Source of the DNA: a virus
Strand: one strand, 5' to 3'
Virus record (IMG/VR): IMGVR_UViG_3300033388_007451
Coordinates: 1-38,652 of that record
Length of the DNA: 38,652 bases
Positions 1,351 through 11,231 of the stretch are shown piece after piece. Under the pieces are notes generated by a model. It saw only the letters and a program-made list of their open reading frames with translations, did no database searches and had not been told where the DNA came from. A program made the position numbers and the translations under genes. How positions within the stretch are numbered: the stretch's first letter is position 1; each line of letters begins with the position of its first letter.

Positions 1351-4314
1351 ATGGCTTTAGAAGTTTTAGAAAAAATCCATAAGGGATTATATGGTTTAGC
1401 TACTCCAGTTAGAGAAACAATTCGGAAAATAACTCCCAAATGGTTTCCTTTTCCTTTTGCTCAAAAAATAGAGAGCTCAATGGAAGCTTTTGAGGAAAAA
1501 GTAGCTCCAATTACAAGGAAATTTGAGAGAGCTGGTTTAAAATTGATGGACACTTTTATTGAAAGTTATAAAGTAGCCGAAACAAAAAACAGAAGAATAT
1601 GGACTAATATATTAGACCCTACTTGGAAAATGGAAAAAGAAGGATATAAATTTGCTCCTGGAGAGAAAGAAAAATTTAGAAAACAAGCGGAAACTCTAGC
1701 TCAACATATTCCAACCAATCCTTTTGTGCCAGCGGGAGGACTAAAGGGGATTGACCCTCGAGTAGCGAGAATCCTTCAAAAAGCAGTTCAAAAAGGAGTT
1801 TCTGGAAAAACTCTTAAACAGATTTTAAAAATAAAACCCTCCCAGTTAAAACCTTTAATTCAAACCGCCAAAGAGCAAGCAAAAAGAATAACCAAAATAA
1901 AACCTCCTACCTTAAATCTTGATAGGATTCAAGCTCCTGAAGAGATTAAAACTAGAATTATTGATTGGACTAACAAACACGCCAAATACTTGGCTGACCA
2001 ATATCCTCATTATACCTTCCGAGAGATTCAATCTGAGTTAGAAAAAAGTGGTTTTGATATTTTAAAAGGAATGAGAACTTGGAAAAAAGTGTTTGGTGGT
2101 GACACTAAAAAAACTTTAGTTGCCATAAAAGGAATTAGAGATTCAGCTTTAAAAATTGAACAACAAATTGCCAATATTCAAAAAGCTCTTAGAACAACTA
2201 ACAATCCTGATAAAATATTGTCTCTTACTACCCGATTAAAAGATTTGCAGTTAGCTCACGATGGATTATTTGAGGCAGTTTTGGGTTCGGGGAGAATTTC
2301 TGGTCAATTACTGGCTTTTCGCAGAATGACCTCTAAAGCTCTAAAGGGAACTGTTTTAGAGAAAAGATTAGTCTTAGAAAGGTTATTAGGGAAACAATTT
2401 GAACCAGGGAGTGCTCCTTATCAGAAATTTATAACTTTATTGAAAAATATTGACCCTGCTGACCCCCAGGCAGTGATGCAATTTTTAAGACAAGCTCAAG
2501 CACCAAATATTACAGATTTTCCAGCTTCAATATGGTATAATGCTATTCTTTCGGGACCTAAAACTCATTTAGTGAACTTATTAGGAAATACCCTATTTGG
2601 AACAGTTGAGAGTTTTGTGGTAAGACCAATAGCTTTTCTGTTAGATACTCCTCTTTCTAAATTGAGAGGAGTGGCTCCCAGACACACTAGTAAAAGTATG
2701 GTTGGGTATTATGGAGGAATGTTAAGAGGGTTAAAAATCGGTATTGATAGATTTTGGCAGACAATGAAAACTGGTTTTGACCCTGAGGAGATATTATATC
2801 CTTCTAAATGGCAACAATTAAGACAAGTTCCTTGGGAGACTAAATTTGTTAGAATGCCCGGTAAAATTTCAGAAGTGCCGGGTTGGTTACAACCTTGGCT
2901 TAGGGGTACAGGGAAAGTAATTAATATACCTACTCGGCTTTTAAAAGCTGCTGATACTTTCTTTAAAGGAATTTTTGAAGAAGCAAGAAAATTTGAGTTG
3001 ATAGTGCCTAAAGTGTGGAGTAAAAACAAAACTCTACGCCAACTTATCTTAGAAGCTGATGAATTAGCAAGGTCTAATCCGTTAGAATGGTCAGATGAAG
3101 CAATACAGTTTGGTAGATGGATGACTTTTCAAGATGCTCCAGGGAAAATAACAAGTTGGGTAATTCGAGGAAGAGATACTGTACCTGGTCTAAGATATAT
3201 TATTCCTTTTGTAAATATCGCCTCAAATCTATTAAAACGGGGATTTATTGATTACTCACCTGTAGGATTAACAAAAGGGATTCAGGAGATTGTTATTAAA
3301 AATCCCAAAGCAGCCGAGACAACTGCAAGAGGGTTGTTTGGTACTCTTGTAATGTTAGGTGGAGTTTTAAAGTATCTTGATGGAAGTATCACTTTGGGTG
3401 CTCCTCCCAACAGAGCTGAGAGAGATGCTTTCTACCGACAAGGAAAACAGCCTTGGTCAGTAAAAATAGGAGATAGGTGGGTAGGAATTAGAAGATTGGA
3501 ACCTTTTATTTACCCCTTTCTTAGCGGAGCTTTAATTGCCGATGCTGTTCATAAAGGAAAGTTAAATGATAAGAACACTGAGGAGATTATAGCTGATGCC
3601 GCTCAGAAGATAGGACAGTTTGTTACTGATGCTTCCTACTTATATGGATTGAGTCGTATTTATCGAGCCCTGAATCCTTCTTGGGAAAGCGAGGGAAGTG
3701 AGTTTTTAGCTTGGTTGCAACAATTAGGAACAGGTTTTCTTCCTTATTCTAATGCTTTACGGTCTATTGCCACTGCTATCAATCCTGAAGTTCCTGCACG
3801 AGATTTATCTACCCAGGAAGTTTTTGAGTCAATTATTCCTTTTTTAAGAAAGAAAATAAAAAAACGGCTCACTGTTTGGGGTGAACCTGCTAAATATGTA
3901 ACTGGAGCACCTGGTACCTTTTTACCAGTGGCTACTTCAGAAATTACTACTGATGATACAGAAAACGAATTAATGAGATTGGATTATAGTCCTGGTTTTC
4001 CCTCAAAACCTTCTGGAATGGACGATAATTCTTATCGAGCTTATCTTGTTTTGTCAGGGAGATTGTCAAAGTTGGCAGTTAGTTATTTGATTCACCAACC
4101 AGCTTATTATCAGGCTGATGATAATACTAAGCGAAAAATGATAGCAAATACTATTTCTGCTGTCAGAAAACAAGTTAGACAACAATATTTTGGTTATTTT
4201 AAGTGGTATGACTATTTTTACAATCTTTTCAGAAATCAAGGATTTAATCGAGAAAACTCGGAAGCTATGGCTGATAAAGCTTTTGATATGTTATTGCAGG
4301 GAGTCACTCCCTAA
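1351..4314 (+). CDS. Large internal virion protein, putative DNA-ejection protein
   Basis: The product has 987 residues and is the largest in the genome. The mid-section carries NAILSGPKTHLVNLLGN (about residues 398-414), a motif that recurs in very large phage virion proteins thought to be ejected with the DNA. The N-terminal third is lysine-rich and helical. Hydrophobic stretches follow (around TARGLFGTLVMLGGVL and PFLSGALIADAV), as expected for a protein that enters or crosses a membrane. It starts two bases after the upstream coiled-coil gene and ends the virion operon. No transglycosylase or protease motif is evident to me. The last 24 bases overlap a leftward small gene. The function is inferred from size, motif and position. 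Confidence 0.7.
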   Translation: MALEVLEKIHKGLYGLATPVRETIRKITPKWFPFPFAQKIESSMEAFEEKVAPITRKFERAGLKLMDTFIESYKVAETKNRRIWTNILDPTWKMEKEGYKFAPGEKEKFRKQAETLAQHIPTNPFVPAGGLKGIDPRVARILQKAVQKGVSGKTLKQILKIKPSQLKPLIQTAKEQAKRITKIKPPTLNLDRIQAPEEIKTRIIDWTNKHAKYLADQYPHYTFREIQSELEKSGFDILKGMRTWKKVFGGDTKKTLVAIKGIRDSALKIEQQIANIQKALRTTNNPDKILSLTTRLKDLQLAHDGLFEAVLGSGRISGQLLAFRRMTSKALKGTVLEKRLVLERLLGKQFEPGSAPYQKFITLLKNIDPADPQAVMQFLRQAQAPNITDFPASIWYNAILSGPKTHLVNLLGNTLFGTVESFVVRPIAFLLDTPLSKLRGVAPRHTSKSMVGYYGGMLRGLKIGIDRFWQTMKTGFDPEEILYPSKWQQLRQVPWETKFVRMPGKISEVPGWLQPWLRGTGKVINIPTRLLKAADTFFKGIFEEARKFELIVPKVWSKNKTLRQLILEADELARSNPLEWSDEAIQFGRWMTFQDAPGKITSWVIRGRDTVPGLRYIIPFVNIASNLLKRGFIDYSPVGLTKGIQEIVIKNPKAAETTARGLFGTLVMLGGVLKYLDGSITLGAPPNRAERDAFYRQGKQPWSVKIGDRWVGIRRLEPFIYPFLSGALIADAVHKGKLNDKNTEEIIADAAQKIGQFVTDASYLYGLSRIYRALNPSWESEGSEFLAWLQQLGTGFLPYSNALRSIATAINPEVPARDLSTQEVFESIIPFLRKKIKKRLTVWGEPAKYVTGAPGTFLPVATSEITTDDTENELMRLDYSPGFPSKPSGMDDNSYRAYLVLSGRLSKLAVSYLIHQPAYYQADDNTKRKMIANTISAVRKQVRQQYFGYFKWYDYFYNLFRNQGFNRENSEAMADKAFDMLLQGVTP

Positions 4315-5558: not shown

Positions 5559-5738
5559 ATGAAAAGATATTTTGTCACTGAAATCCTGTATAACGGTATT
5601 GTCAGAAGCGAGGCAGATATAGAAACCTTAAAATGGCTTCTGGGAAAATGGACGAAAGAGATGAGAATTAGGGTAATCGTAGAGAAAGAAGAGAGAGAAG
5701 ACCAAATAAAGGAGGGAAAAAATGAAAAAGTTTGGTAG
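5559..5738 (+). CDS. Small hypothetical protein
   Basis: The product has 59 residues (MKRYFVTEILYNGIVRSEAD...). A strong ribosome site (AGAGGAGGTTAAAA-ATG) decides the start. The stop lies inside the next gene, a 17-base overlap that implies translational coupling. The sequence predicts strand-helix-strand with a charged tail. No family is recognised. It is the first gene of the SD-rich accessory operon. Confidence 0.7.
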   Translation: MKRYFVTEILYNGIVRSEADIETLKWLLGKWTKEMRIRVIVEKEEREDQIKEGKNEKVW

Positions 5739-6448: not shown

Positions 6449-6534
6449 TACCTCAAAACTATCAAAAGGGAGGTAAAAATGAAAAAAATGATGAAGTTCG
6501 AAAATCAAGACAAAATAAGAGGAAGACCCATTAA
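6355..6534 (+). CDS. Small basic helical protein, overlapping both neighbours
   Basis: The product has 59 residues (MLRKIREILKRVKRVYRENL...), strongly basic, an amphipathic helix followed by a polar tail. It overlaps the last 94 bases of the upstream gene and the first 56 of the next in a different frame. A near-perfect ribosome site (AAAGGAGGTAAGAAA-ATG) supports it, equal to the sites of the accepted genes around it. No family is recognised. Confidence 0.5.
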   Translation: MLRKIREILKRVKRVYRENLEEIFEQGDGTVIPQNYQKGGKNEKNDEVRKSRQNKRKTH

Positions 6535-7072
6535 GTTGAATAAGTTGAGATTAGAGCTCAAACCCGGTAAGGATTACACTGAAATTGTCTTTTGTGGAGA
6601 TTGGCACTATGGAGCAAGAGAGTGCGCTGTCAATAAAGTGAAGGATATGCTTGATTACTGCTTAAAGCATCGGATTTATGTTTTCTTAATGGGAGACCTG
6701 CTGGAAGCTGGACTTCGGACTTCAATCGGAGCTTCGATGTATCGTCAAAAGCTCAATCCTCAAAAACAGATGGAAGATGTAATTGAACTTCTCCGACCCT
6801 TAAGTGAAAACAATCTGATTCTTGGAGCTTTGGAAGGAAATCACGAGTTAAGAATAGAGAAAGAGACTGGGATTTCTATTATGAAAGTTATCTGTAGATT
6901 TCTAAATATCCCTTATTTGCACGGAGCTTGCTGGAACCTCTGGTATGTTAAAGATCAATCCTACAAAGTTTATACTCTCCACGGTTCTTCTTCTTCAAGG
7001 TATGTCTATACCAAATTGAAGGCACTGGTTGATATTTCTCATAATTTCAACGCAGACTTGATGGCAATGGGT
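6479..7072 (+). CDS. Metallophosphoesterase, exon 1
   Basis: The 5' exon gives the first 198 residues of a calcineurin-like phosphoesterase. It shows the metal-binding motifs in order: GDWHYG (D-x-H), MGDLLEAG (GD), LEGNHELR (GNHE) and YTLHGSS. The fifth motif, GHxH, is missing here and is completed by the second exon at 7978: MAMG + HVHELADTV. Read without splicing, the frame runs into a stop at 7124-7126 and gives a 215-residue protein lacking the last metal ligands. The likely role is a DNA/RNA phosphodiesterase or phosphatase, as in many phage members. Ribosome site GGGAGGTAAAA-ATG. Confidence 0.85.
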
Positions 7073-7221
7073 CAACGTGGCTCATATAAAATCTGGCTAT
7101 ATGCTGGAATACCCTTAGAGCCTTGAATACAAAACACTTATCTGAAAGGATAAGTGAAGTAAAAATTTCAAGGATTGGGCAATCAGCAGGGAAGATTCCT
7201 TAAATGGAAAACCCTCAGAGA

Positions 7222-7866
7222 CTATATGCCAGACAATTTGCCTTTATCAAAGAGACGATGACAGTTTGGACAAAGCAAGATAAGATTTTCTTCTATATAT
7301 TTCCCGTTCTTTCTACGAGGGATACGATGAGCAACGTCGCAAATATCCTTGTTCCATCCACAGACTTGACAAGTATGATTGTATTTTTTGTTCATATATC
7401 TACGCCAATAATCTTCACTGTGCTTTGTATAATATCTGCTTCGGTCGGTAGGAATTCCGTATTTCTTAATTCGTTTATGGATAGTTCCATATCCGCAATG
7501 ATATTTCTTGGCAATTTCCTTAATCTTTAATCCGTTTTCCAGATATTCTTTTCTCAGAACTTCTTCTGTTAATTCCTTAGCTACCTTAATCTCGTATTTT
7601 CTGGAATAAAGAGGAAATTGTTCTGGATGTTTACTTCTATATTCACCATAACATTTTATAGAGCAAAAATAATGTCGCATCGGCTTAGTATTGAATCTCC
7701 ATTTTGGACGGCGAAAAGTTTTCCCACAATTAGCACAAGTGAAAGAAACCCACTTAGCTCGTCGGTCTTTATTATAACATTCTCTTGAACAGTATTTCCC
7801 CCGTTTACCCTTATTGGGTCTTGAATAAAAACTTTGTCCACAAACTTTACACTTTTTATATGGCAT
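7222..7866 (-). CDS. Intron-borne HNH homing endonuclease
   Basis: The product has 214 residues. The N-terminus has two treble-clef zinc knuckles (CKVCGQSF...YCSREC and CANCGKTF...FCSIKC). A helix-turn-helix follows (IKEIAKKYHCGYGTIHKRIKKYG), and the C-terminus is an HNH nuclease core with paired cysteines (CQVCGWN...CDVAHRIPRRKNG...NLILLCPNCHRLFD). It lies within the P8 region of the group I intron but is encoded on the opposite strand. Its stop codon falls inside the intron's P7 sequence. It has its own consensus promoter and a nearly leaderless start. It likely drives homing into intronless alleles. Confidence 0.9.
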   Translation of the reverse strand: MPYKKCKVCGQSFYSRPNKGKRGKYCSRECYNKDRRAKWVSFTCANCGKTFRRPKWRFNTKPMRHYFCSIKCYGEYRSKHPEQFPLYSRKYEIKVAKELTEEVLRKEYLENGLKIKEIAKKYHCGYGTIHKRIKKYGIPTDRSRYYTKHSEDYWRRYMNKKYNHTCQVCGWNKDICDVAHRIPRRKNGKYIEENLILLCPNCHRLFDKGKLSGI

Positions 7867-7873
7867 ATAGTTT

Positions 7874-7901
7874 ATTATATCATCATCAAACTATATGTCA
7901 A
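7874..7901 (-). promoter_or_regulatory. Consensus promoter of the intron HNH gene
   Basis: On the reverse strand TTGACA (7901-7896), 16-base spacer, TATAAT (7879-7874), both perfect. The expected start of transcription is near 7867, one base before the ATG at 7866, so the mRNA should be essentially leaderless. Confidence 0.8.
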
Positions 7902-7977
7902 TAGGCAAATTGAAGATATAGTCCGAACTTATGGGAAACCATAAGAAGCAGGCAATAAGTCTGCGATAACAAAATTA

Positions 7978-8193
7978 CACGTCCACGAGCTGGCTGATAC
8001 TGTTCTGAAAGTTCAAACAGTTGATAAAATGCGAAAGCAGGTCGTGGAACATAAAAAGTTTCTCTTACTAACTGGACACTATTTGAGATATGAGCGTTCC
8101 TATGCTCAAGAAAGAGGTTATCCTATTGGTAAAATCGGCTCTCCGAAAGTTAAGTTATTCGGGAACAAAAAAGATATAAGAATTTCTTATTAA
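7978..8193 (+). CDS. Metallophosphoesterase, exon 2
   Basis: This 3' exon encodes the last 71 residues (HVHELADTVLKVQTVDK...). Joined to 7072 it gives a 269-residue enzyme with the complete GHVHE metal site. It has no start codon of its own. The tail (GKIGSPKVKLFGNKKDIRI) is typical of the C-terminal strands of small phage phosphoesterases. The next gene's ribosome site overlaps its stop. Confidence 0.85.
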   Translation, partial: HVHELADTVLKVQTVDKMRKQVVEHKKFLLLTGHYLRYERSYAQERGYPIGKIGSPKVKLFGNKKDIRISY

Positions 8194-11183: not shown

Positions 11184-11196
11184 GTTATCCACAACT
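11183..11196 (+). promoter_or_regulatory. DnaA-box-like 14-mer AGTTATCCACAACT
   Basis: Contains TTATCCACA, the canonical DnaA box, inside AGTT/AACT palindromic arms. It ends seven bases before the -35 of the promoter at 11204. The same 14-mer occurs at 19671, with a one-base variant at 19813 and a diverged copy at 4499. Confidence 0.65.
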
Positions 11197-11203
11197 TGGG
11201 GTC

Positions 11204-11231
11204 TTGACAAGGTTGCTTGGGGGAGTATAAT
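11204..11231 (+). promoter_or_regulatory. Consensus promoter of the rightward early region
   Basis: TTGACA (11204-11209), 16-base spacer, TATAAT (11226-11231), both perfect. It probably drives the small HTH gene and the long rightward replication operon. Transcription should start near 11238. Confidence 0.85.

Follow-up and report, generated by a model that had tools for sequence, protein, structure and literature searches.

Group I introns of phages that encode endonucleases face a common constraint, in that the endonuclease must be expressed without ribosomes spoiling the folding of the ribozyme. The answer in phage T4 consists of timed promoters plus RNA hairpins: the endonuclease genes of the td, nrdB and nrdD introns (I-TevI, I-TevII and I-TevIII) have a separate promoter and lie in the sense orientation (PMC2988022), with a Shine-Dalgarno sequence sequestered by a hairpin. 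Reversing the gene and giving it a promoter of its own would meet the constraint in another way. Group I introns in the rDNA of Didymium carry antisense endonuclease genes, and expression from the opposite strand has been demonstrated in Didymium squamulosum (PMC9548176, PMC3073962, PMC3679873). For I-DirII, encoded in intron Dir.S956-2, an internal promoter of its own is reported (PMC3073962, PMC9548176), and antisense interference has been named as a potential problem of such layouts (PMC9548176). We found no description of antisense endonucleases in phage introns in the open-access literature, outside of which most subscription papers lie; the words antisense, opposite and orientation are absent from a review of bacterial group I introns (PMC3984707). 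A reversed layout with its own promoter has thus far been described for slime-mould rDNA, and the phage case presented here, as read from its sequence, would be a new setting for it.

The DNA analyzed, here called the window, is the whole of a 38,652-base contig from an uncultivated virus, with terminase and capsid genes present. As in Dir.S956-2 / I-DirII and Dsq.L2066 / I-DsqI, an endonuclease gene in the window runs antisense to a ribozyme. The Didymium systems belong to nuclear rDNA, with RNA polymerase II, His-Cys endonucleases, spliceosomal introns, polyadenylation and, for Dsq.L2066, a location in P9, whereas the window has a phage protein gene, a sigma-70-type promoter, an endonuclease of the HNH family and a location in L8. 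As an HNH gene within a phage protein gene, the element works like the Didymium antisense type but is not a member of it. With the T4 introns it shares a phage group I ribozyme and a separate, here predicted, endonuclease promoter, but the window gene is antisense and has no Shine-Dalgarno sequence, so regulation of the T4 type, by a sequestered site on the sense strand, is not what is found. Intron 2 of Twort nrdE also encodes an HNH enzyme, I-TwoI, and its sequence resembles the 5' half of the window intron (76% over 60% of the 173 bases queried); I-TwoI is encoded in the sense direction with an annotated ribosome-binding site, unlike the antisense gene here. Leaderless initiation has been proposed for out-of-frame HNH insertions in phage methylases such as that of ShiLan (PMC11855218). 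These resemble the window in hiding an HNH gene within an insertion, but are sense, in an alternate frame, and no ribozyme was found in them.

The interrupted metallophosphoesterase gene

The elements of the host gene and of the ribozyme are as follows.

6479 to 7072, plus strand: 5' exon of a metallophosphoesterase gene (PF00149, E = 6e-7), ending ATGGGU|
7073 to 7977, plus strand: group I intron of 905 nt, with partial RF00028 matches, P1/P10 and a junction taken from homology
7978 to 8192, plus strand: 3' exon, starting CACGTCCACGAG (HVHE)
7080 to 7085, plus strand: internal guide sequence, forming P1 with exon bases 7067 to 7072, including the pair U7072.G7080
7075 to 7079 with 7978 to 7982, plus strand: P10, contiguous with the guide sequence
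7092 to 7097, plus strand: P3 5' strand, UCUGGC, with its partner GCCAGA at 7228 to 7233
7219 to 7224, plus strand: P7 5' strand, AGACUA, whose CUA (7222 to 7224) is complementary to the HNH stop codon TAG
7915 to 7923, plus strand: P7 3' strand, GAUAUAGUC, in which UAGUC pairs with GACUA (7220 to 7224)
7234 to 7242, plus strand: P8 5' strand, CAAUUUGCC, with its partner GGCAAAUUG at 7904 to 7912 and the HNH insert in L8

The intron splits the metallophosphoesterase gene at MG|HVHE. Two viral contigs, L003 and L004, encode the same gene uninterrupted, with the intron absent at that site; their best segments show 75% and 67% amino-acid identity, respectively, to the window gene. The spliced window DNA, ...GCAATGGGT|CACGTCCACGAG..., aligns with both across the junction without a gap, and the intron is therefore assigned to 7073-7977. 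An alternative junction at 7082/7963, by which the intron would end in G, was rejected; it would insert QRGSITKL within the GHxH motif, and L003 and L004 favor 7072/7978.

Two partial matches to RF00028 occur on the plus strand in the correct order, one to the 5' side of the core (7089-7234, E = 8e-8) and one to the P8/P7/P9 side (ending at 7945, E = 5e-5). The best single score is 40.7 bits, and both matches fall short of the 50-bit gathering score since the HNH reading frame, within an L8 of 0.66 kb, splits the match. Through these partial matches the core (P3/P4/P6/P7/P8) fits RF00028, and the pairings P3, P7 and P8 are all found. P1 has six base pairs, AUGGGU/GCUCAU, with U.G at the splice site; P10 has five, ACGUG with the initial five bases of exon 2, and both helices are fully paired.

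The homology-derived junction, which comes from a single contig, makes A7977 the last base of the intron, while G is the final base of the introns that L300 and L301 carry in the same gene family. A7977 represents either a lost terminal G or an assembly error. Genuine loss would impair exon ligation, and with a terminal A in place of G the splicing competence of the intron, judged from its sequence, is not certain. The 3' ends read ATTAG|C in L300 intron 2 and ATTA|C in the window. Group I introns in homologous phage metallophosphoesterase genes are inserted at conserved motif codons that differ from case to case: SD|LHYG and HGSGGS|R in L300 (1300-2890, reverse complement), MGD|LLE in L301 (1347-2828, reverse complement) and MG|HVHE in the window (after 7072). 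Endonuclease reading frames of L300 intron 2 and of the L301 intron have the sense orientation.

The antisense HNH gene and its candidate promoter

The HNH gene and its associated features are the following.

7222 to 7866, minus strand: HNH endonuclease reading frame of 214 amino acids, with Cys pairs, an HTH-like region and a C-terminal HNH
7221 to 7231, plus strand: one arm of an 11-bp inverted repeat, ACTATATGCCA, the other being 7872 to 7862 at the HNH start
7896 to 7901, minus strand: -35 box TTGACA, perfect
7874 to 7879, minus strand: -10 box TATAAT, immediately preceded by TG at 7882 to 7881
7866 to 7868, minus strand: expected transcription start, placed by spacing and leaving a leader of 0 to 2 nt before the AUG at 7866
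7135 to 7156, minus strand: weak hairpin resembling a terminator, located beyond the HNH stop, of a kind that occurs at chance number

An uninterrupted frame of 214 codons lies in loop L8. It runs on the strand opposite to the intron, as the original prediction had it; the span 7222-7901 then given has to be divided, since only 7222-7866 is coding and 7867-7901 is promoter. The protein is recognized by PF01844 (E = 9e-10) and by the HNH family PHROG 1271 (E = 8e-24), and the aligned residues of the HNH catalytic motif are also present in relatives (L010 and the crAss-like phage cr55_1). A search of IMG/VR proteins with exact peptide seeds found no HNH relatives. Single-sequence structure prediction for the HNH protein was poor (pLDDT 62, pTM 0.29, with the HNH part below 50).

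The C-terminal coding sequence overlaps the ribozyme core. The stop codon TAG (7224-7222) lies opposite CUA of the P7 5' strand, to which it is complementary; this placement within P7 had likewise been predicted correctly. The final codons, GKLSGI, lie opposite P8 5' and P3 3'. The protein shares an ending of the L010 type, HRLFDxxKLS, and then stops; the L010 and cr55_1 relatives extend further, so that the window protein ends earlier than they do, at the P3/P8/P7 elements.

A ACTATATGCC-like sequence occurs three times, at 7221-7231, 7862-7872 and 7889-7900, and the first two copies make up the 11-bp inverted repeat, one arm at each end of the HNH gene. A match as long was reached by 3 of 1000 random placements, for a repeat noticed post hoc. 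In the sense RNA, a 12-bp hairpin over the promoter, built from the ACTATATGCC-like sequence, could compete with P7. A history in which the HNH gene once lay in sense and was then inverted between the 11-bp repeats was rejected, as inversion would remove the P3 3' and P8 5' strands.

The sequence TTGACA-N16-TATAAT at 7901-7874 on the minus strand has both boxes perfect with the 16-base spacer originally claimed, and carries TG at the extended -10 position. It is the top-scoring site on either strand of the 38.6 kb window under a simple sigma-70 matrix. Shuffled sequence gives 0.023 perfect TTGACA/TATAAT sites (spacers of 16 to 18) expected per window; three are observed, all with 16-base spacers. 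Seven bases separate the -10 box from the HNH ATG. No Shine-Dalgarno sequence precedes that ATG (duplex energy -1.8 kcal/mol), while the neighboring starts at 5722, 6029 and 6479 have strong ones, at -12 to -13 kcal/mol. A missing Shine-Dalgarno sequence is by itself weak evidence for leaderless initiation, because other genes of this phage lack one too; several reading frames from about 21 kb on, late genes included, start without one. Translation of the HNH gene from a leaderless message, as first proposed, is nevertheless probable given the start point predicted: the expected leader of 0 to 2 nt and the missing Shine-Dalgarno sequence both agree with it, but the start point itself comes from promoter spacing.

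The -35 region, 7886-7905, matches exon sequence left of the junction at 14 of 20 positions, a level equaled by 1.5% of random placements. The match is reminiscent of the operator of I-TevI, with 15 of 20 (PMC2988022); in regulation of the T4 type, a copy of the homing site overlaps the promoter and serves autorepression. The other two perfect promoters in the window, at 11185-11231 (+) and 19681-19639 (-), share TGGG.GAG in the spacer. Upstream of both, in opposite orientations, lies AGTTATCCACAACT, containing the DnaA-box sequence TTATCCACA, which is found in the window only at these two promoters.

Proposed working of the reversed arrangement

The reading we favor, and consider reasonably probable, is that of a mobile group I intron whose L8 carries an antisense HNH homing endonuclease gene, for which a strong sigma-70-type promoter of its own would yield a leaderless or nearly leaderless mRNA. 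Only on the sense transcript would the ribozyme core be read, with splicing restoring the metallophosphoesterase, and the endonuclease would be made only from a separate, leftward transcript. The enzyme would cut intron-less alleles at ATGGGT|CACGTC, by which homing would begin. Ribosomes would never translate the antisense frame on the pre-mRNA, and for that reason HNH translation could not disturb ribozyme folding. The cost of reversal would be that the two transcripts might collide or base-pair with each other.

That cost might itself be put to use: by pairing or colliding with the intron RNA, the antisense transcript or its polymerase might make splicing and endonuclease production mutually exclusive in time. 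P7 5', P3 3' and P8 5' all have their complements in the HNH mRNA, the best-scoring promoter of the window faces the sense operon, and antisense interference is the problem already named for slime moulds (PMC9548176); it is possible, on these complementarities, that antisense HNH RNA blocks intron folding or splicing. The message would cover more of the core if it extended to the terminator-like site at 7156-7135, but that site is no better than chance, and we hold control of this kind to be unlikely. By a different account, which we judge quite unlikely, the HNH gene arrived recently in inverted form, or is a passenger in decay, and is little expressed within an intron already degenerate at its terminal A. 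Its terminal G is missing by comparison with the L300 and L301 introns, and the HNH protein is shorter than its crAss and L010 relatives, ending at P3/P8/P7; yet the 214-codon frame is uninterrupted and its motif intact, the promoter is perfect, P1 and P10 are fully paired, and the antisense architecture recurs elsewhere.

It is far less probable that the promoter match arose by chance and that the HNH gene either depends on another leftward transcript for its expression or is silent. The locality is AT-rich (27% G+C), which would favor fortuitous matches, but the number of perfect sites expected in a whole window is very small, and this one is placed exactly where the reading frame needs it. 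Almost all long reading frames near the HNH gene run rightward, which argues against another leftward transcript as its source.

Antisense endonuclease genes in other phage introns

Group I introns were drawn from IMG/VR by P7 patterns, and bacterial and archaeal genomes were added. The pattern GAAGATATAGTCCA is too short to be used alone, as most of its matches lack a P7 partner, and the comparison was restricted to loci with both P7 strands. Motifs in reading frames were assigned by eye and with phmmer, non-exhaustively, and the counts are small and biased by the patterns. Among the long-L8 introns with both P7 strands that were sampled, endonuclease-like reading frames all lie in sense except in L114. 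In this IMG/VR phage locus (L114/L299), a MoxR-type AAA gene (PF20030) carries a sense intron, matched by RF00028 at E = 1e-6, with an antisense HNH-like frame of 164 amino acids in L8 whose TAG stop comes from P7. On sequence evidence, then, the same antisense build is found in at least one other uncultivated phage. The L114 frame has a GGAGG Shine-Dalgarno sequence before its ATG, and no consensus sigma-70 promoter was found for it. A homolog of the L114 protein (phmmer E = 9e-26) occurs in L8 of L024 in the sense orientation, where it reads through P7 3' as EDIVRT. Homologous HNH proteins thus occupy the same loop in opposite directions, and the costs and benefits of orientation become testable, because sense and antisense layouts can be compared between these phages.

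The closest relative of the window HNH protein in the phage record collection, at 29% identity, is KNV27_gp049 of the crAss-like phage cr55_1, also of PHROG 1271. Like the window gene, it is antisense to a group I intron and overlaps it; the intron scores 58.7 bits, above threshold. It differs in lying on the 3' side of the core rather than in L8 and in not being annotated as intron-borne. The same antisense build is probably present, to judge by this overlap, in this gut phage. A promoter scan before the cr55_1 HNH start found no promoter; as L114 and cr55_1 both lack a promoter like that of the window, the promoter and leaderless part of the arrangement does not generalize. An antisense reading frame of endonuclease VII type immediately precedes an intron core in L020, and also in L298, where it occupies 1801-2625 (-), with the group I core at about 2770, and may belong to the 5' periphery of the intron. 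Antisense motif matches in L028, L057 and L109 were set aside as apparent chance matches of the regular expressions.

Within the small, pattern-biased counts of this survey, antisense endonuclease genes in phage introns appear to recur and look uncommon. Any wider class of prokaryotic group I introns, in which reversal of the endonuclease gene, together with a promoter of its own, would uncouple endonuclease expression from splicing, opposing transcripts would regulate each other, and the conserved CUA of P7 would supply a ready-made antisense stop, is doubtful. Annotation restricted to the sense strand will miss endonucleases borne by introns, and cr55_1 is an apparent example, its HNH gene being annotated and its intron not. 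Two stretches of the cr55_1 record (L435, NC_055869.1), 1426-2107 and 2763-2963, take in the unannotated intron overlapped by the antisense HNH gene and, some 650 bases upstream of it on the same strand as the intron, a RAGATH-22 RNA.
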